A stretch of DNA of 37,205 nt. Origin: a virus. Numbering within the stretch: position 1 is the first letter of the stretch; every line of letters begins with the position of its first letter. The notes beneath the pieces are model-generated. The model saw only the letters and a program-made list of their open reading frames with translations, searched no databases and had not been told where the DNA came from. Position numbers and translations under genes: made by a program. Shown piece by piece: positions 5,131 through 19,367 of the stretch. Location: positions 1 through 37,205 of IMG/VR virus record IMGVR_UViG_3300044631_002046; one strand, given 5' to 3'.

Positions 5131-6552
5131 TCAGTTTACATTTTTTAGAATCTGACTTAACCACACTTCACTCATATTTTCAATGATTACATTTGCATCA
5201 TTGAGAGTTTCAGCAAAGTTGTTCTCAAGGAGGTATGATGCTACAATCTGATAAACTTCTCCCAACTCCTTCTTTTCTCTTGGGGTTAATGTTCCAGCAG
5301 ACATGGCAGAACTTCTTGCACTCTGCAAGTCCTTATCACCACCTTCTACCTTAGCAGCATAACCTCTTAATTGTACTCTTGGTTTATCTCTCACAGAACC
5401 CCTTCTAGATGCTGCTAGACCTCTTAGAGTTCTACTTTGTCTTTCTTCTCTCTTCTTTCTGTCTGCGTCAGACTCATCACGCTTGTGCTTGATATAAGGA
5501 CGGTCGGCACCTCTTTCTGCTGCTGCAATGGTCTTGTCTACACTACCAGAACGTTGGTATGCCTTGGAACGTGCTGCAAGTTCTTTACGGACTGAAGTTT
5601 CACCTTCCTTGCCGAGTTCCTTACGCATTCTGGTTGCTTCATCAAGTCCAAACTCTTCATTATATTCTTTATTTCTGACCGCTGCAATTGCTTCTGCTTT
5701 TGACATTCCAGAAGCCATCATTCTTGCAATTCTTACATCTGCGAAGTCATTATCACCATCTTGGTCTTGGTCTTTTTTCTTTGCTTCATAAATTGAAGAA
5801 TACGCATTTGCAACATCTTTAAGAGTTGCTTTTGTTCCCCATTCAAATGATGACATAACTGCTCCTGGTTTTTTAATAGGTGAGGTTGAAGGTGTAGGTT
5901 TTGGTGCTGCAACAACAGGTGCTGCTGGTTTTGGGGCAGGTGCTTCAACTGCAGCAGCAGATCTATTCAAACTTGCCTTTCCAATCTGATTTGCAGTTGC
6001 TGATTTTGCGGTCCCACTTAGAATATTTTTGGCACTTGAAGATTGAGAAATACTATTAACTGCCGCATTTCCTCTAAGTTGATCCAATTCTGCTTTATTT
6101 TGACCTGGCATATCCTTCATTAAAGGATTTGGAGTCTTTGGTTTAGCAAAATTATCACCATATTTAAGTTTATTAACTGACATTCCAGTTTCAGCAGCAC
6201 CTTTCACATCACCTGCTTTTTTCTGTGCAGAATATACTTGCATACCACCCTTAATTTTATCTGCAGTTGATGCAGAAGCAGATGATGAAGTTCCTGGTTT
6301 TGCTGGAGTCACTTTAGTTGGAGTTCCAGTAGTTGGTTTGGTGTATGTTGCCTTTGCGTCTGGATTTACACCACCCAATGAATTAGTTACAGGGAATCTA
6401 TCACGAGCACGAACTGGAGTTGATTTTGCTGGTTTCATTGGACCAGAAGGTTTATCATTTGGACCATCCCAAAGAGGTTCATCTCTCAAAGGAGCTTCAG
6501 TAATAATGCTTTCATATAAATTTTTAACCGCACCAAAATCTTCCTTATTCAT
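5131..6552 (-). CDS. Putative virion/internal head protein, low complexity
   Basis: The 473-residue protein is rich in Ala, Lys, Pro, Ser and Thr, with long disordered repeats (PAPKPAAPVVAAPKP) and no known enzyme motif. It starts MNKEDFGAVKNLYESIITEA. The YESIITE/A segment resembles a T4-type capsid-targeting leader with a prohead-protease site (hydrophobic-x-E then A). Near residue 262 there is DQDQDGDNDFADVRIARMMASGMSKAEAIAAV. A C-terminal module (about residues 434-473, YQIVASYLLENNFAE then IIENMSEVW) is shared in pattern with the 825-residue protein. Late promoter motifs lie upstream and a strong terminator downstream. Cyanophage proteins of this sort are usually called virion structural proteins; its exact role is unknown. 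Confidence 0.7.
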   Translation of the reverse strand: MNKEDFGAVKNLYESIITEAPLRDEPLWDGPNDKPSGPMKPAKSTPVRARDRFPVTNSLGGVNPDAKATYTKPTTGTPTKVTPAKPGTSSSASASTADKIKGGMQVYSAQKKAGDVKGAAETGMSVNKLKYGDNFAKPKTPNPLMKDMPGQNKAELDQLRGNAAVNSISQSSSAKNILSGTAKSATANQIGKASLNRSAAAVEAPAPKPAAPVVAAPKPTPSTSPIKKPGAVMSSFEWGTKATLKDVANAYSSIYEAKKKDQDQDGDNDFADVRIARMMASGMSKAEAIAAVRNKEYNEEFGLDEATRMRKELGKEGETSVRKELAARSKAYQRSGSVDKTIAAAERGADRPYIKHKRDESDADRKKREERQSRTLRGLAASRRGSVRDKPRVQLRGYAAKVEGGDKDLQSARSSAMSAGTLTPREKKELGEVYQIVASYLLENNFAETLNDANVIIENMSEVWLSQILKNVN

Positions 6553-6608: not shown

Positions 6609-6998
6609 CTCAGAATCAACCCAATCCCCCTTTATACCCATTGCGCCACCTAAAAGGTCTTGTGCTTTACTTCCATCTTTTTCCTCTTCATAGTAGATAG
6701 AAGTTTTTTCTTCTGGTTGTTCTATTTTTTTATATTCTTCTATTGCTTTATCAACTTCACTCTCAACTCTTTGGTTTAATAATTCTGGTGTATTAATTAC
6801 ATAGTCATTTATTGTATCATCGATTAAACCACGTTTCAAAAGTTCTTTTTGTATTTCATCAACAAGTTTCCATAATTTATTTTTGTCTATTTTAAATTTA
6901 GAAGACAAAATCTCGATAATGCCTTCTAGCACTATCGAGATTTTTGCCCATTCTATAATTCCTTTTTTCTTTTTTCCAACTTGGAAATTAAAGTTCAT
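6600..6998 (-). CDS. Hypothetical charged helical protein in the late block
   Basis: The 132-residue product starts MNFNFQVGKKKKGIIEWAKI. A predicted helical middle (EILSSKFKIDKNKLWKLVDEIQ) is followed by a strongly acidic, Glu-rich C-terminal third. There is no membrane segment or known catalytic motif. Its start overlaps the stop of the upstream CTS-bearing gene (ATGA), so translation is coupled. The coding sequence contains a perfect 12-bp inverted repeat (6907-6944). I recall similar proteins among cyanophage structural genes but cannot assign a role. Confidence 0.65.
   Translation of the reverse strand: MNFNFQVGKKKKGIIEWAKISIVLEGIIEILSSKFKIDKNKLWKLVDEIQKELLKRGLIDDTINDYVINTPELLNQRVESEVDKAIEEYKKIEQPEEKTSIYYEEEKDGSKAQDLLGGAMGIKGDWVDSENK
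6907..6944. repeat. Perfect 12-bp inverted repeat inside a coding region
   Basis: AAAATCTCGATA (6907-6918) and its exact reverse complement TATCGAGATTTT (6933-6944) flank a 14-base loop, within the codons for ISIVLEGIIEI of the 132-residue protein. On both strands the stem is followed by T-rich sequence, so the mRNA could form a stable hairpin. Confidence 0.75.
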
Positions 6999-7594
6999 TT
7001 TTTGGGGGGTGCAGAAACTTTTGCATACACCATTCTCTTACCCCATTTTTCTGGAGTAGTTCCTTTTCCTGCAATGTCTTTGGTAATTTGGGGAGACACA
7101 TCAAAAGAAACATCTTTATTTACATTTCCAGTTCTTCCAAAATCACCAACATCATTAATTTTTGCTGTTGTAGATTTTGTCTTTGTTCCCTGTGGATTTG
7201 CAGTTAACTGCAATTTGGAACCATAAGAAATAGATGGTTTTCCTTCTTGTCCTTTTGGTGCCTGTCCTTCCTTATACTTAAAAGGAACTGCAGCATTTCT
7301 AGTTGTCCAGTTATGGGGGTCACCAGTTGCTGTAGTCTTGTTTGGAGTGAATTTATCTCCAGGAGCATACACTGATGCCTTTACTGGTTTCCAACCATAT
7401 CTTTGTTGTTCTGCACCAGTATGTGCTCTTTGAGTGAATTTACCAGTAGATTTATCAAGTTCACCAGACTTATAATTTTTATATGCCAAAACCTTTGTAT
7501 TTGGTTTTGGTTTTGCTGTTGGTTTAGATGCAAAAGGACCAAAGAACTCACTCAATGAATATGCTTCCGCACAAAATTCTTTATAAGTTTTCAT
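6995..7594 (-). CDS. Putative internal head protein with T4-type capsid-targeting leader
   Basis: The 199-residue basic protein begins MKTYKEFCAEAYSLSEFFG. The first eleven residues closely match the T4 IPIII leader (MKTYQEFIAE/A), which targets internal proteins to the prohead and is cut after Glu by the gp21 protease. A Lys/Pro/Thr-rich region follows, then VLAYKNYKSGELDKSTGKF and, near the C-terminus, DVGDFGRTGNVNKDVSFDVS. The latter is faintly like a double-psi beta-barrel or 3D-type domain, but I would not rely on it. It sits four bases after the 825-residue gene and overlaps the next start (ATGA). It is likely expressed late from the promoter at 10098. Confidence 0.7.
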   Translation of the reverse strand: MKTYKEFCAEAYSLSEFFGPFASKPTAKPKPNTKVLAYKNYKSGELDKSTGKFTQRAHTGAEQQRYGWKPVKASVYAPGDKFTPNKTTATGDPHNWTTRNAAVPFKYKEGQAPKGQEGKPSISYGSKLQLTANPQGTKTKSTTAKINDVGDFGRTGNVNKDVSFDVSPQITKDIAGKGTTPEKWGKRMVYAKVSAPPKK

Positions 7595-7597
7595 AAT

Positions 7598-10075
7598 TTA
7601 TTTTGCTGGTTTTTGAAGTGATTGGAAACTTCTATTTCCTTTTGCATCATATTTAACTGTGCCTTTGACACCACCCAGAGTTGCACCATAAGACTGTCCA
7701 ACTTTTGCCTTTCCTTTTGCTACTTGGTTTACTCCAGAATTTCCAAGATTTGCACGAACCATTCTTTGTCCTTTATCCCCATAAGTAGCAGTTCCCTTAA
7801 CTCCACCAACCTTTACATCATATGCTTTATTAGTAGCAACTTTTTGCTGCTTTCCTGCGATATTTGTTGCAGAAATTACTTTACTTGGTTTTACGTCAGA
7901 AGGACCTGACTTTCCTGTTCCTTCTTGTGATGGAATGTTTCCTACTTTTGGTTTTGCTCTTGTTGCTGCCATTCCTGCTGCTTGAATCTGTTGTCTGGTC
8001 TTTCCAGATTTTGCAGCGGCATCACCACCTCCAGCACGGAAAGCAGCATCACCACCTCTTGCCGAGTCAGATGACATTCCTGTAGGTTTTGGTTTATTTT
8101 GCTTCCCTAGTAATGCTGCTCTATTTTGTGCCTTTCCAGCATCGGTTTTCCCTCTTTGAACTGCCCTACTAAATTTTCCAGTAAGTCCACCAGTTTTCAT
8201 AGTATTGATTGCTGATTTATTGATATTACTAATTGCACTTCCAACTGCTCCAGCTGCTTTTCCTACTGCTGCTCTATTTTGTGCTTTTCCAGCATCAGTA
8301 GAACTCCTAGAAACTGCTCTATTAAAAGAACCTAATACTCCACCACCATCAGAAAAGGACTTAATATTTTCATCAATTTGTAAATCGTCATTTTCCACAA
8401 TAAATTGTTTCCAGTATTCATAAGCAGTCATCTCTTCGGTCTTGGTTGCTTGATAAGAACGAACTCTAGATTCACCTTTTTTGTCGGGTGCTACCATATG
8501 GGTTTTGATTTTCTTTGATGTTGGTGCTTCCTTCTTTTCTTTCTCAAATGCCTTATGAACTTTGGCAGCATCATCATACATATGGATTTTCTTAGCACCA
8601 CTTTGCTTTGCTACTGCATTTGCAACATCAACTTTCTTCTTACCAATATCACCACCTTTCATTCCACCAGTGTAGTGAATGTTCTTCTTATCTACGTCAA
8701 CACCATGCTTCTTGAGGTGTCCTTGGAATTCACTTGGTTTATCAAACTTAGAACGAGCAGTAATGAGATGAACGTTTTGTCCTCTTGCTTGCTTTCTCTT
8801 GATATCCTTAATTACTTTTTTGTTTGGACTAGCAGTTTGGGAGAACTTTTTAGCACTTTGGAACTCACTAAAGTCATAAGAATGTCCCTTATCTAACTTA
8901 TGAGTATTGAACTCCTGGTTGCTTAAACTCTTGACTCTCTTGCCAGATGCATCCTTAACGTGAACCTGAACGTTTGGTTTACCTTTCTTACCGTGTCCGA
9001 AGAGAGTTTCGTCAACATCATATGCATGAACTGTTGTCTTTTTTCTAGTTCCTCTTGCCTTCTCTTCAATATACTCCTCAAGAATAACTGAGGTAAACTC
9101 ATCACTAATGTGCTCAAACATTACTTCTGCTGCTTCATAACTCTCTGCGTAATCTGCAGCAACTAGCATTTCAATAACATAATCATATGCATCATCATAG
9201 TCAAAAGACTGATTCAATTGCTTCATTTGATTAGCATATCTATTTCCACCAATAGGAGAAGTATTTCTTGCTTTATCAATTGCAGAATCTGCTTTTTTCT
9301 TAAGTGCTTCCATACCTTTACTTGCAGCCATAATGCCACCAGCAGCTAAAGCACCTTTAACTAGAAGTCCAGCAACCTCATCAATTTGCTCACCTTCTGG
9401 TTCAAATGAATTTGCCATTGCTTGCTTACGGATAGTGGCAAAATAAATCTGAGTTCCTTTCTCTTTACCGTATTGGTCAATCATACTCTTCTTCATTGAT
9501 GAAGTGTCATACTTCTTTTTAAGTTTTTTCTCTTTCTTCATCTCTCCAGAAGTCATTTCTCTTTCCAAGATATACTCTTCCTTATAACCTTTTGCTGCAG
9601 AACTCCAATAATCATCCCAAGACTTTTGATTTGCTTCAGCATCTTCTCTAGAAGATGGTTTGAAAGTTCCACTTGTTTTACGAATAGAACCTTGAGGTTT
9701 TCTTGTTTTCTTTTTAGTTCTTGCCTTTGCTGCCAAGGATTCAATTTCTTCTTTTGATGCTGGTTTATCTTGGACTTTTTTTGTCACTGGATTCCAGTGT
9801 GCTTCATCTACCATATCTCCATCTAGTTCATATCCAGCAACTTGCATTCCTGGTTTTGCTTTTGCGAGAGGAAGTTGAGGTCCAGTTCTCTTCAAAAATT
9901 CTTTCTTTTCGTAAGGATTATCAGTTCCAGTTCCTTTATTGTATAGTTTTTGTGTCTTCTGGGCACCTTTATGTCCAGGACCAATCTCAAAACTTTGCTC
10001 AGAAAGTAAAGTCCCTGCAGTTTCAGAGGTTTTAATTTGAGTGTACAAGTTTTTAATATCGTTAATACTGGACAT
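7598..10075 (-). CDS. Large multidomain late protein with embedded HAD-like phosphatase
   Basis: The 825-residue protein combines several parts. The N-terminus MSSINDIKNLYTQIKTSE, with LLSEQ soon after, offers possible prohead-protease sites. A charged segment at about residues 188-220 (EMKKEKKLKKKY, then IYFATIRKQAM) is of a kind seen in cyanophage structural proteins. A module at about 292-335 (YDYVIEMLVAADYAES) also appears at the C-terminus of the 473-residue protein. Residues about 349-515 form a HAD-type phosphatase: HAYDVDETLFG with Asp353 and Asp355, HLITARS (Thr near 439) and GDIGKKKVDVANAV with MYDDAAK (about 500). A second leader-like segment follows (EYWKQFIVEN, about 550-560). 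The C-terminal third has the repeats TDAGKAQNRAA twice and GGVKGT twice. Expression is from a TATAAATA late promoter. A virion role is inferred; enzyme activity is untested. Confidence 0.75.
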   Translation of the reverse strand: MSSINDIKNLYTQIKTSETAGTLLSEQSFEIGPGHKGAQKTQKLYNKGTGTDNPYEKKEFLKRTGPQLPLAKAKPGMQVAGYELDGDMVDEAHWNPVTKKVQDKPASKEEIESLAAKARTKKKTRKPQGSIRKTSGTFKPSSREDAEANQKSWDDYWSSAAKGYKEEYILEREMTSGEMKKEKKLKKKYDTSSMKKSMIDQYGKEKGTQIYFATIRKQAMANSFEPEGEQIDEVAGLLVKGALAAGGIMAASKGMEALKKKADSAIDKARNTSPIGGNRYANQMKQLNQSFDYDDAYDYVIEMLVAADYAESYEAAEVMFEHISDEFTSVILEEYIEEKARGTRKKTTVHAYDVDETLFGHGKKGKPNVQVHVKDASGKRVKSLSNQEFNTHKLDKGHSYDFSEFQSAKKFSQTASPNKKVIKDIKRKQARGQNVHLITARSKFDKPSEFQGHLKKHGVDVDKKNIHYTGGMKGGDIGKKKVDVANAVAKQSGAKKIHMYDDAAKVHKAFEKEKKEAPTSKKIKTHMVAPDKKGESRVRSYQATKTEEMTAYEYWKQFIVENDDLQIDENIKSFSDGGGVLGSFNRAVSRSSTDAGKAQNRAAVGKAAGAVGSAISNINKSAINTMKTGGLTGKFSRAVQRGKTDAGKAQNRAALLGKQNKPKPTGMSSDSARGGDAAFRAGGGDAAAKSGKTRQQIQAAGMAATRAKPKVGNIPSQEGTGKSGPSDVKPSKVISATNIAGKQQKVATNKAYDVKVGGVKGTATYGDKGQRMVRANLGNSGVNQVAKGKAKVGQSYGATLGGVKGTVKYDAKGNRSFQSLQKPAK
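8115..8296. repeat. Pair of near-identical 29-base direct repeats
   Basis: Copies at 8115-8143 and 8268-8296 differ at one base. They encode the repeated peptide (T)DAGKAQNRAA of the 825-residue protein. They are 153 bases (51 codons) apart, so unequal recombination between them would delete or duplicate a unit in frame. Confidence 0.8.
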
Positions 10076-10135: not shown

Positions 10136-11320
10136 TCAAAGTTGGAATCCAGCAAATGTATCCTTTTTCAAGTCTTGCTTAATACCACCAACAACATAAC
10201 TTTCAACTTCTGTTTCTTGTGGAGCAACTTGAAGACCTTTAGAAGAAATCCAATGCTCTGTCCAAGGAAGGGGATTATTCTTCGCAGAAATATCATAAAG
10301 TGGTTTAAGTCCAACTGCTTTCATTCTACGATTTGCAATCCACTCTACATACTGATGAAGAAGTTTATCATTAAGACCAATCATAGAACCATCCTTGAAT
10401 AGGTATTGTGCCCATCTCTTTTCTTCATTTACACAATTTTCAAAAGCAGATCTCACCCATTCCTCTTCTTCCTTAGCAATTTGCTGCATTTCTGGATCAT
10501 CCCCTTCACGCCACTTATTGAGGATGTTTTGAGTAATGACAAGGTGCTGATTTTCGTCTCTTGCGATGAGAGAGATAATTTTAGCGGATCCTTCCATAAG
10601 TTTGAGTTCACCAAACGCAAATGAGCAAGCGAACGAGACATAAAACCTGATACCTTCGAGAATGTTGACATTGGCAATTGCTCTATAAAGTTTCCTCTTT
10701 AATTCAATTCTTCCTTCTCTTGCATAACCTGCACCCTCTTGTGCAAACAACCAATCATTAGAAGTTCCATATTGTTGGGCAGAATTAATAAAATCATCAT
10801 AAGCACCAGTCACAGAAGATGCCCTTTCTATAATATGTTGATTTGATAGAATAGAATCAAAAACTTCTGATGGGTCAGAATATACATTTTTAATAATGTA
10901 TGTGTAAGAACGACTATGAATCATTTCCATAAATTCCCACACAGTCATACATGCTTCCAATTCAGGAAGAGAGCAGTATGGGACAAATGCCATTCCAGGT
11001 CCACGACCTTGAACAGAGTCTAGAAGAATCTGATACTTCAAATTGGAAGTAAAGATATGCTTCTGTTCAGGACGAAGGGTTTGGTAATCAGCACGGTCTT
11101 TTTGGAGGGAGACCTCTTCAGGTCTCCAAAAGTATCCAAGTTGTTGAGTGGTTAATTTTTCAAAAATTGGATACTTATAGGAATCATATCTCTGAACCCC
11201 TAAAGGTTGACCAAAAAACATAGGTTGCTTTTTGGTCTCTACCTCTTTGGTATTAAAAACAGTCATACCATTTATTTCAGTAGTTTCTTCGGAATTAAGT
11301 CTAAATTTTACAGGATTCAC
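10136..11320 (-). CDS. nrdB: Ribonucleotide reductase small (beta) subunit
   Basis: This subunit supplies the tyrosyl radical for class I ribonucleotide reduction with NrdA, making dNTPs for phage DNA. The 394-residue product is close to the usual 375-390. Visible family signatures include LLDSVQGRGPG with the first Asp ligand, WEFMEMIHSRSYTY with Glu, His and the radical Tyr, EGIRFYVSFACSFAFGE with a Glu ligand, and LIARDENQHL with Glu and His, so all iron ligands are present. I chose a GTG start at 11320, which overlaps nrdA by 20 bases and has AAGGAG nine bases upstream. The alternative ATG at 11266 lacks a ribosome-binding site. It is followed by a strong terminator. Confidence 0.96.
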   Translation of the reverse strand: MNPVKFRLNSEETTEINGMTVFNTKEVETKKQPMFFGQPLGVQRYDSYKYPIFEKLTTQQLGYFWRPEEVSLQKDRADYQTLRPEQKHIFTSNLKYQILLDSVQGRGPGMAFVPYCSLPELEACMTVWEFMEMIHSRSYTYIIKNVYSDPSEVFDSILSNQHIIERASSVTGAYDDFINSAQQYGTSNDWLFAQEGAGYAREGRIELKRKLYRAIANVNILEGIRFYVSFACSFAFGELKLMEGSAKIISLIARDENQHLVITQNILNKWREGDDPEMQQIAKEEEEWVRSAFENCVNEEKRWAQYLFKDGSMIGLNDKLLHQYVEWIANRRMKAVGLKPLYDISAKNNPLPWTEHWISSKGLQVAPQETEVESYVVGGIKQDLKKDTFAGFQL

Positions 11321-16594: not shown

Positions 16595-18184
16595 TTACCA
16601 TTTAACTTTGTTTGCCCAATAAGCAGCAGACATTTTTCCCTTTTTAATATTTTTTGCATGTCTTGTTTGAAATCTATGACGACGACTTGCATATTTCTTA
16701 GATTCTCCCTTTTTCTTGGGAGAACCCTTTACACCAAGTTGACCAAAACGAATTAATCTTTCTTTACCACCTTCACATGCCTTTACGACATGGGATTTTC
16801 CAGTTTCACCAGAACCATGTGCCTCAGCTCTAGGCTTATTGCACTTCATTTCAGACTTTTTTGACTCCTCTATTTCAACCCCCTCTCCAATTATACCATT
16901 GATTAGTTGTGAATTTTTTCTTCTTTTTGCATTTTCAAGTGCCTTTAATACCATTAGCATTAAAATTTTTTTTTTATCTAATTCTTCAGAAAGTTTTTCA
17001 TCACTCTGCATATACTCAGAGGCAGTATCAATATAATCTGCAGCTCTGGTAATTTTCGATTGAACCCAGGCAGGCATTTGTGTATCTGCCTTCTTTATTT
17101 TTTTACGAAGTGCCTTAATTGCTCTCTCCATTTGATCCAATTCAACATTTGCCATATAACCTTCATCATCTTTCTTTTTACCACTAGCAATTTCATTATG
17201 GTCTTCCATAATTCGTGGATTCATCTCAATTTTATTTTTTCCTTTCATCACATCGATAATTTTTTTCTTGGAAATCTTTTCTTTATTTCCACCTTTTTCC
17301 TCAATTTCAAATAAAAACTCTTCTTTCCAATTTGAATACTCTTCCATTCTTGCTTGAATTAAATTAGTTTTCAACTTTTTATTTTGCCTTGCTTTTTGAC
17401 CGAGAGTTGGTTCTGTTCTCGAACCTTCTGCAGGACCAGCAGTTCTTCTTTCTCCCTCAGATGAAGGTTTCAGCATTTTCCTCTTATCCACCCCATAAGG
17501 AAGTTGTGGTCTATCTGGAGATGGTTGTCCAATTCTCTTTGCTGGTTGACCAACTCTAAATCCACCTTCAGAAGAAGCAGGAAGTCTCCTTCTTTTACTT
17601 ATTAGTTTTCCTGGGGGAAGAGCCTTTCTTTCCGAAGAATCAACATTTTTTGGACCAGTTTCTCTAGACTCTTCTCTTTTTGGTCTTCCTGGTTTTCCTA
17701 AATCTTTTTTCTCATTTTGTTTTTTCAGGGAGTCTTTTGCTTCTTTTTTCTTTTGGAGTGCCTTTGCCCCATGGTAAGCACCCTTTGCCAATCCAGCAGC
17801 AAGAGATCCTAGATTTTCAATTGCCTTGGAATGTGCGGTAAGTTCTGGGTCTTTATATCCAATTTTTTGCACCTTTACACTTGCTAAAGCCTTTTTTGCC
17901 TTAGCACCTTCAGTTTCTGCTGCTTCTTTCCCTTTTTCTAACTGCCTCTTTTTTTGATCTTCGTATTTTTGTTTTTTAAATTCAAGTTGTTGTTGAAGAT
18001 ACTTGGTATAATTAGATGACTCCTCCTTGCCCTTACCCTTTGCTTTCTTATTTTTCTTTTGCTCAGACTCCAAGGCTTCTCTTCCTTTTTTGTTTATTTC
18101 GGAAGAAGTTAACTTTTTTCCATCCTTTTTGGATGTTCTTTCATATTTTTTATCTTCAAAGATATACTTTTCCCAGTAGGTCAT
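16595..18184 (-). CDS. Putative virion/internal protein, very basic, with conserved C-terminal domain
   Basis: The 529-residue, extremely Lys-rich protein starts MTYWEKYIFEDKKYERTS. YWEKYIFE resembles the capsid-targeting leaders nearby, with I-F-E as a possible protease site. Lys/Glu coiled and low-complexity regions follow (residues 20-290, with repeats of SSEGGFR/SSEGERR type), then a second leader-like NWKEEFLFEIE. A helical block MERAIKALRKKIKK with PAWVQSKITRAADYIDTAS comes next. The C-terminal domain (about 445-529) has MKCNKPRAEAHGSGETGKSH, RFGQLGVKGSPKKKGES and RRHRFQTRHAKNI. I associate that domain with a DUF (DUF6321, from memory) of T4-like phages. A late promoter TATAAATA lies 29 bases upstream. 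DNA binding is plausible from charge. Confidence 0.72.
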   Translation of the reverse strand: MTYWEKYIFEDKKYERTSKKDGKKLTSSEINKKGREALESEQKKNKKAKGKGKEESSNYTKYLQQQLEFKKQKYEDQKKRQLEKGKEAAETEGAKAKKALASVKVQKIGYKDPELTAHSKAIENLGSLAAGLAKGAYHGAKALQKKKEAKDSLKKQNEKKDLGKPGRPKREESRETGPKNVDSSERKALPPGKLISKRRRLPASSEGGFRVGQPAKRIGQPSPDRPQLPYGVDKRKMLKPSSEGERRTAGPAEGSRTEPTLGQKARQNKKLKTNLIQARMEEYSNWKEEFLFEIEEKGGNKEKISKKKIIDVMKGKNKIEMNPRIMEDHNEIASGKKKDDEGYMANVELDQMERAIKALRKKIKKADTQMPAWVQSKITRAADYIDTASEYMQSDEKLSEELDKKKILMLMVLKALENAKRRKNSQLINGIIGEGVEIEESKKSEMKCNKPRAEAHGSGETGKSHVVKACEGGKERLIRFGQLGVKGSPKKKGESKKYASRRHRFQTRHAKNIKKGKMSAAYWANKVKW

Positions 18185-18212: not shown

Positions 18213-19367
18213 TTATTTATAGTTTTTGCGGGAAATATGAGATTTCTTTTTTTTACTTGCAGAGAAATCTCGAACCTTTTCTCCTGGGGTAATCCCCTGA
18301 ACATAATTTAAATACTCAAGAGTACCTATCTCATGAACTTCTCTAACATCTCTTAACCAACTCTTAAACATGAGATTGTCTTCTGTTACACAAATCAAAT
18401 AATTTGCACCTCTTCTAATAATTTTACCAATCAATCCACTATTTACATTTTCAACAAAAGTACCAACTTCAAAAAGATTATTGTTTTTATAATTCCATCT
18501 CAACCCATCATAGTCAAACTCTGGTTCTATTCTCCAAGCCTCAGTTGACTCATTAACTTTCATGGATTTTCTAAGAGTATTAAACATCTCTTCTTTTTCT
18601 CTCTGATCCATATTAATTGGGAGACCTGCCTCAAATTTGTAAAAATCTCCCATAGCAACTGCAGCTTTCATAAGAGCAGAAGAACCAGGGGATTCTACCT
18701 CGCTATCTGGGTCCTTTACTCCTGCAGTGATTACTTCCAAATTAGAAAATTCATATCCCTGTCCTTCTGCTTTATGAGCCAAACTTTGAAATTCTCCAAG
18801 TCTTTCTTGCCCAACAACTAAAGTAACATCAGTATACCCATCAGAATATACAGATTCAAGAATATCAAATATTGTTCTAGCATCTTCACTATCAACAATG
18901 TATTCCTCGTAATCAGGAAACATTGATTTCATATAAGCAATCTTTAAAGTGGGGTTTAGTGGATTTGAAGAAGAATCTTGTATTCTACTTGGGTATATTC
19001 TATATTCAAATCCTTTTCGTTTTGCCTGAGAAAATCCTGCTTTTAGCAATTGCTCATGATTTTTTGATGGGGGATTAAATCTTCCAAGAACAACAACAAC
19101 TCCTTTTGGTTCTTGTTCCTGTGTTTGTTGCTGTGTTTGATTCTGGTAGTTGGCACTAACTTTTTCTTCTTCACCAGGAATACCATCTACAGATTTCGAA
19201 TCACCTTGCCCATAAAACTTTAGTTTACCATTAACAGTTTTTGCAACAAAATTTCCTTGATTGTCATACCAATCTCCATGACCATTACCTACAAGTCCAC
19301 GGTTCTTTGCCTCAGTAGATGCTAAGGTCTCTACTGCCTCGTTAAAAAATTTAGCAAAAGTCTTCAT
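18213..19367 (-). CDS. Nucleotidyltransferase-domain late protein with capsid-targeting-like leader
   Basis: The 384-residue protein begins MKTFAKFFNEAVETL, matching the T4 capsid-targeting pattern MKTYQEFIAE/A with a likely cut after Glu10. The central region (about residues 89-250) looks like a cytidylyltransferase/NMN-adenylyltransferase fold: VVVVLGRFNPPSKNHEQLL at the nucleotide-binding position, VTLVVGQERLGEF, and GSSALMKAAVAMGDFYKFEA near the second site. The usual T/HxGH is SKNH and the usual S-x-T-x-x-R is altered, so activity is uncertain. The C-terminal domain (FEVGTFVENVNSGLIGKIIR, then RGANYLICVTEDN, FKSWLRDV) is an SH3-like module I associate with cyanophage structural proteins. 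A late motif lies 18 bases upstream. Confidence 0.78.
   Translation of the reverse strand: MKTFAKFFNEAVETLASTEAKNRGLVGNGHGDWYDNQGNFVAKTVNGKLKFYGQGDSKSVDGIPGEEEKVSANYQNQTQQQTQEQEPKGVVVVLGRFNPPSKNHEQLLKAGFSQAKRKGFEYRIYPSRIQDSSSNPLNPTLKIAYMKSMFPDYEEYIVDSEDARTIFDILESVYSDGYTDVTLVVGQERLGEFQSLAHKAEGQGYEFSNLEVITAGVKDPDSEVESPGSSALMKAAVAMGDFYKFEAGLPINMDQREKEEMFNTLRKSMKVNESTEAWRIEPEFDYDGLRWNYKNNNLFEVGTFVENVNSGLIGKIIRRGANYLICVTEDNLMFKSWLRDVREVHEIGTLEYLNYVQGITPGEKVRDFSASKKKKSHISRKNYK
18214..18221 (-). promoter_or_regulatory. Late promoter TATAAATA inside the end of a gene
   Basis: The octamer on the minus strand encodes the last Tyr-Lys and part of the stop of the nucleotidyltransferase gene. It lies 29 bases upstream of the ATG at 18184, which it is placed to drive. 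Confidence 0.75.

Follow-up and report, generated by a model that had tools for sequence, protein, structure and literature searches.

What a HAD-type phosphatase domain does inside an 825-residue protein of a T4-like cyanophage, and at which point of the infection cycle it would act, is the question raised by this locus. The window, i.e., the whole stretch of DNA analysed, is a 37.2-kb IMG/VR record (IMGVR_UViG_3300044631_002046; 37,205 nucleotides), which also encodes DNA polymerase, clamp and clamp loader, UvsX, gp41/46/47-like proteins, Hsp20, MazG, NrdA/B, zwf and a tail lysozyme; its NrdB shares 86% identity with the one from the lake Synechococcus phage DSL-LC03. With the 825-aa protein as query, 131 relatives were obtained from IMG/VR, 80 of which were retained, and with the domain alignment as query the number was 147; the family is spread over about 150 IMG/VR contigs, in proteins of ~330 to 1020 aa. 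Two peptide patterns of the family found no relatives in GTDB genomes. None of the cultured phages in the collection searched carried a HAD-family protein, and none has been seen in virions so far. The features of the locus are reported in Table 1.

Table 1. Features of the HAD-bearing gene and of related genes in the window (residues are those of the 825-aa protein)
Feature	Positions	Strand	Basis or conservation
nrdB, fixed neighbour upstream of the HAD gene	10136..11320	-	
Modular protein with HAD domain, 825 aa	7598..10075	-	ORF list, full-length alignment
N-terminal peptide MSSINDIKNLYTQI..., not a canonical CTS; type also on two annotated S-SCSM1 virion proteins	9986..10075	-	
54-aa module, residues 21-74, in common with small cyanopodovirus proteins near scaffold/capsid genes	9854..10015	-	
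Helical module ...YGKEKGTQIYFATIRKQAM, residues 172-224	9404..9562	-	confident helices, full-length model
Helical tag before the HAD domain, residues 294-340, in common with gene 5131-6552 and homologues	9056..9196	-	HMM search
HAD phosphatase domain, residues ~341-545	8441..9055	-	41-member alignment, AF2 model, Foldseek, dN/dS
Motif I DVD, D353 (predicted nucleophile) and D355 (predicted acid/base)	9011..9019	-	invariant
Motif II, T439 in HLITARS	8759..8761	-	invariant
Motif III, K480/K481 in GDIGKKKVD	8633..8638	-	invariant
Motif IV, D501/D502 in MYDDAAK	8570..8575	-	invariant
CTS-like tag TEEMTAYEYWKQFIVEN at residues 546-562; many relatives end in it (...YEYWKQFID/K stop)	8390..8440	-	
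C-terminal beta module, two GGVKGT-type repeats, residues 750-825	7601..7828	-	block pLDDT ~81-91
Next gene, 199 aa, N-terminus MKTYKEFCAEA, a T4-type CTS	6995..7594	-	
Basic protein, 473 aa, ending in a helical tag of the residues 294-340 type	5131..6552	-	
Basic protein, 529 aa, N-terminus MTYWEKYIFED, CTS-like motif at residue 4	16595..18184	-	
Cytidyltransferase/NMNAT-like protein, N-terminus MKTFAKFFNEA (CTS)	18213..19367	-	

HAD motifs I to IV (DxDxT, T/S, K and DD) follow one another in order, motif I being D353-V-D355-E-T357, and T357 and the catalytic residues listed in Table 1 showed no variation in 41 relatives with identity down to 57%. The dN/dS of the domain, measured between the relatives and the window, was 0.04-0.11, indicating purifying selection. 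The AlphaFold2 model of the domain (pLDDT 84.3, pTM 0.79) was compared to the PDB by Foldseek, and the best annotated matches were HAD phosphatases, namely the HAD domain of Lem4 (E 9e-4), AphA and e(P4). Since the residues are invariant, the dN/dS is low and the model matches known HAD phosphatases, the conserved domain is not a product of chance; the 825-aa protein almost certainly contains an autonomous HAD-superfamily domain with a Rossmannoid fold, which we predict to be, very probably, an active phosphatase. D353 would attack a phosphomonoester in a Mg2+-dependent phospho-Asp mechanism. The preliminary description had claimed a HAD-type domain in this place and named its residues, all of which are present; given the motifs, the dN/dS, the model and its PDB matches, neither another fold nor a missing Asp nucleophile, the two outcomes that would contradict this claim, was found, D353 being present in all 41 aligned relatives. 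The location held as well, although the proposed span, 8540-9030, was slightly narrow in respect to the conserved part, 8441-9055.

To which HAD family the domain belongs is less easily said. Pfam and NCBIfam gave no family above its cut-off for the domain, Pfam had no match at all in the 825-aa protein, and phmmer and hmmsearch of PDB sequences returned nothing relevant for the domain. In the viral structure library BFVD, the matches were uncharacterised Caudovirales proteins at 22-30% identity (E 4e-9 to 6e-18), together with several PNKP phosphatases and Swiss-army-knife HAD proteins. Four proteins of uncultured Caudovirales (A0A6J7WD63, A0A6J5L613, A0A6J5KPZ7 and A0A6J5MBE6), 22-30% identical in the structure alignment, probably share a branch with the HAD family; two of them are part of long proteins whose annotation is deaminase or cytidyltransferase.

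The preliminary description had considered a nucleic-acid 3'-phosphatase, which is one candidate among others, and the most specific form of this idea is that the domain belongs to the T4 Pnkp family of polynucleotide 3'-phosphatases and is a repair enzyme, an assignment of substrate and family that would be compatible with packaging. PHROG 415 (polynucleotide kinase) was matched weakly (E 4e-4 to 1e-6), by 35 of the 41 members at E down to 1.4e-6, PNKP phosphatases are among the BFVD matches, and the T4 Pnkp phosphatase, which shares with our domain the HAD fold and the DxDxT and DD motifs, matched with a TM of 0.64 on its own length, the top target-normalised value among the PDB matches listed. 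However, hhalign of the family against T4 PseT gave a probability of 5.7% over 27 columns around motif I only, and the insert after motif I is different; by E-value, acid-phosphatase folds come ahead of T4 Pnkp, and they score equal or better; the protein has no kinase domain, with no Pfam match for one in the 825 residues and none confident in the full-length model. On the profile comparison we rejected a place in the T4 Pnkp family, and we regard this identification as rather unlikely. AphA and e(P4), acid phosphatases of HAD subfamily IIIB, match in fold, and Acid_phosphat_B was matched by three members (best E 7e-4), but these matches are weak and under the curated cut-off, and a secreted enzyme differs from the phage internal-protein-like context observed here. 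As judged from these comparisons, the domain falls in no named HAD family tested, T4 polynucleotide kinase-phosphatase included, and the family was filed as unassigned HAD phosphatases, which should act as phosphatases. Nucleic-acid ends or nucleotides would be the likeliest substrate class, and for a nucleic-acid or nucleotide substrate we consider the case evenly balanced. That the fold is catalytically dead and retained for binding is most improbable, as nucleophile, acid/base, Thr, Lys and metal-binding Asp are invariant in relatives down to 57% identity, with dN/dS of ~0.1 or below, and nothing in support of it was found in the sequence or alignments.

The HAD domain is strongly conserved, and the flanking parts are swapped modules. 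The mean column identity of the full-length alignment (27 members) was 29%, compared to 78% for the HAD domain alone in the 41-member alignment, and all invariant columns of the former, Met1 excepted, are within residues 342-539. In the full-length model the flanks are mostly of low confidence; what is modelled confidently is the HAD domain, the helices 172-224 and the C-terminal beta module 750-825. The cyanopodovirus proteins sharing residues 21-74 are ~75 aa long and lie near scaffold and capsid genes; the module of this myovirus protein is 66-70% identical to small capsid/scaffold-adjacent proteins of the T7-like cyanophages S-B28, WH11-B and 7B11-B, a case of gene traffic between the head regions of unrelated phages. 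The helical tag recurs near the C-terminus of the 5131-6552 protein and of its homologues, which in other loci are likewise encoded downstream of the HAD gene. The proposal that the flanks are common to virion-type genes was confirmed by these two segments. As for the label of "large structural-type protein", a modular cargo of the internal-protein-like kind is a better description than a component of the particle's structure. The repeats of the C-terminal beta module, modelled confidently, are DVKVGGVKGTATYGDKGQRMVRA and GATLGGVKGTVKYDAKGNRSFQS. The low-complexity stretch towards the C-terminus contains a Walker-A-like AAKSGKT, which was taken as chance.

The segment following the HAD domain resembles the T4-type capsid-targeting motif (CTS). 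In the CTS of T4, positions 4 and 7 serve targeting and positions 8 and 10 processing (review PMC9026906). The N-terminus of ipII/ipIII is MKTYQEFIAEA and that of ipI MKTFKEF; EYWKQFISEA aligns to them as aromatic-x-x-F-I-x-E-A. Most family members have M(T/S)(A/S)YEYWKQFI after the domain, preceded by EE, one form of the tag being MSAYEYWKQFISEA. Among 60 unique proteins, the tag core lies at most 80 aa after the HAD domain in 44 and within the final 12 residues in 37, and about a quarter are without the tag; where it is C-terminal, as in most relatives, it stops ahead of the cleavage-site Glu, and in other members it runs on as F-I-(S/N)-E-A into another basic region. With a matrix built from seven CTSs, the HAD-family tag excluded, and a background of 52,903 10-mers from the S-CREM2 proteome, EYWKQFI(S/N)EA of the relatives was level with the top 10-mers (fraction 2e-5), and the window's own EYWKQFIVEN was weaker, in the top 0.1%. 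The 825-aa protein has the CTS-like motif together with a hydrophobic-x-Glu site, WKQFIVE at residue 555, and no N-terminal 10-residue CTS, its N-terminus being of another type, with a score of -12.8. A gp21-type protease (PF03420) was found in three of five HAD-bearing records, including those of 247 and 155 kb (E ~1e-36); this region lies outside the window. I/L-x-E protease sites in the HAD cores were 1 against 34.7 expected (61 sequences), a depletion that is not strong evidence since the cores are one conserved sequence with ~0.6 sites expected in each; by expectation, roughly every second sequence would have no such site in its core.

Motifs of this kind are frequent in the window, whose proteome contains nine occurrences of [FYW]xx[FY]hxE versus 2.2 +- 1.4 in shuffles; in three proteins (6995-7594, 16595-18184 and 18213-19367) it starts at residue 4. 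Behind an internal Met, the 16595-18184 protein contains a similar stretch, YSNWKEEFLFEIE, and it looks like two fused internal proteins. The 247-kb HAD-bearing genome has five ORFs with the residue-4 motif, of which MKTYQEFISEA is one letter from T4. At 216333-219332 of that genome a cluster of CTS genes (MKTFKEFLEEA, MKTYQEFISEA, MKTFKEFIEES) was observed, whose products are probable further internal proteins.

To see whether such N-termini go with the virion, the cyanophage S-CREM2, whose virion proteome comprises 52 proteins (PMC10665884; detected set as in its Table 3), was examined. All four ORFs with the residue-4 motif, i.e., the SAM hydrolase gp6, the kinase gp14, gp136 and the cytidyltransferase gp154, were detected by MS, and the motif was present in 0 of 167 undetected and 0 of 24 structural ORFs. 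The association (p=2.2e-4) comes from a small test with a motif refined on the data, and its p is optimistic because a first regex (P2) for CTS N-termini gave no enrichment among the virion proteins and the residue-4 form did; a looser regex gave p=0.0016, and a rank test across the ORFs was borderline (p=0.05). The S-CRM01 orthologues of these proteins have N-termini of like kind. As for the tags at the other end, the detected S-CREM2 gp12 carries RFASFMAEAA close to the N-terminus and finishes with KTFRDFLN-stop, and gp93 of S-SCSM1, an annotated virion protein, ends in RTFKEFLEYIE-stop, tags that in sequence parallel the C-terminus of the HAD family. The N-termini of the S-SCSM1 virion proteins gp89 and gp92 resemble that of the HAD protein (MTHLNDISKVY versus MSSINDIKNLY); in the part of S-SCSM1 examined, this peptide type was on 2 of 7 virion proteins and on 0 of 30 others, and among the virion proteins of S-CREM2 it showed no enrichment. 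Proteins homologous to the window cytidyltransferase were detected in virions of S-SM1 (PMC3037559), of S-CREM2, by MS (PMC10665884), and of S-SCSM1. The CTS of the window enzyme would offer a sequence explanation for the presence of such enzymes in cyanophage virions. In S-CREM2 gp12 and gp14 and in the 18213-19367 protein (residues 16-56), the CTS is followed by a module of ~40 aa (LVGNGHGDWYDNQGNFVAKTVNGKLKFY; E 8e-7, 6e-5); its carriers are virion enzymes otherwise unrelated, and it may be another module for packaging or for holding DNA.

The HAD gene lies directly after nrdB in nearly every locus and, in the loci reaching far enough, the order nrdA - nrdB - HAD - (CTS protein) - (132-aa protein) - (helical-tag protein) - GIY-YIG - lysozyme is for the most part preserved. 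In P-SSM2 the slot after nrdB holds the MKSLSQFIIET and VKTYQQFNES proteins and a helical-tag protein, and in S-SRM01 an MKSFSQFLEES protein, both without HAD, indicating that the HAD domain joined an internal-protein-like cluster and not the nrd operon as such.

Putting these observations together, we consider it reasonably probable that the 825-aa protein is a modular "internal protein", a phosphatase packed in the virion and injected into the host, and packaging in the head taken alone is slightly more probable still. The short tags (N-terminal peptide, helical tag and CTS-like YEYWKQFIxE) would bring the protein into the prohead core, and a gp21-type prohead protease could cut hydrophobic-x-Glu sites in the flanks, leaving the compact basic HAD domain (pI 9.98) free, a step that we regard as possible, if doubtful. 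The freed domain would stay with the DNA, enter the host at infection and act on DNA/RNA ends or nucleotide pools ahead of phage gene expression. The data show the HAD fold, the catalytic residues, the purifying selection, the conserved slot, the CTS of neighbouring proteins and, for one cultured relative, the association of CTS N-termini with virion proteins. Packaging, cleavage, injection and substrate are what we infer, in the case of packaging because the N-terminus is not a canonical CTS; this poor N-terminal score, the C-terminal position of the tag in most relatives, its end before the Glu and its absence from about a quarter of them were counted against packaging, as were the small, partly post hoc CTS statistics. 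The packaged enzyme, which the preliminary description had mentioned as a possibility, is now the best-supported reading by way of the T4-type capsid-targeting motifs, with packaging itself still at the level of inference.

The position directly downstream of nrdA-nrdB, and the presence of the nucleotidase/acid phosphatases e(P4) and AphA among the top fold matches, could also be explained by an intracellular enzyme of nucleotide metabolism, e.g., a nucleotidase, working with ribonucleotide reductase, with the flanks incidental. On the other hand, the P-SSM2 and S-SRM01 slots contain CTS and helical-tag proteins and no recognised enzyme, the flanks are common to other virion-type genes, and a soluble nucleotidase has no need of a CTS-like tag; this explanation seems unlikely to us. 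Even less likely is that the protein belongs to the prohead core or scaffold, where the HAD domain would act in assembly, for instance on DNA ends at packaging, and would not be injected. The flanks are indeed scaffold-like and of low confidence in the model, and one module is in common with proteins near podovirus scaffold genes, but T4 core proteins are cut up and then expelled, a fate that requires no intact catalytic domain under strong selection.

The proposed packaged phosphatase has a close parallel in the gp21-processed IPI, IPII and IPIII of T4, with which it has in common the CTS-like motif, the basic character, the clustered genes and the gp21-type protease in HAD-bearing genomes. 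The T4 proteins differ in that their CTS is N-terminal and they have no HAD domain, whereas in the HAD protein, which is far larger, the motif follows the enzyme domain or ends the protein. Enzymes in cyanophage virions include an NMNAT/cytidyltransferase, an APH-like kinase and a SAM hydrolase (PMC10665884, PMC9602691, PMC3037559); they are likewise enzyme cargo in Kyanoviridae particles, and the homologues of the window cytidyltransferase bear the same CTS and are detected by MS, but no HAD phosphatase is among those that these papers report. Internal proteins packaged in the head are known, as are enzymes in the virions of cyanophages. In the open-licence PMC literature we found no description of a HAD phosphatase as virion cargo, nor of T4-type CTSs on cyanophage virion enzymes. 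More tentatively, capsid targeting in T4-like cyanophages might be an extended system in which N-terminal, internal and C-terminal CTS-like tags on large multi-module proteins serve to load and inject a swappable set of enzymes. A dedicated family of HAD phosphatases would be among them and, within the first minutes after infection, would act on nucleic-acid ends or nucleotides, possibly to counter nuclease or nucleotide-based defences of the host. If true, the metabolic enzymes of cyanophage virions would be explained in a testable way by a T4-type head-import label readable from sequence, the injected proteins of abundant uncultured cyanophages could be listed, and a phosphatase conserved in about 150 contigs would join the enzymes that maybe act on the host before phage expression.

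Finally, in loci L022, L024, L025, L052, L053, L057 and L078, the homology to nrdA was observed in two pieces with ~700 bases between them, which looks like an interruption by an intron, an intein or a homing insertion.
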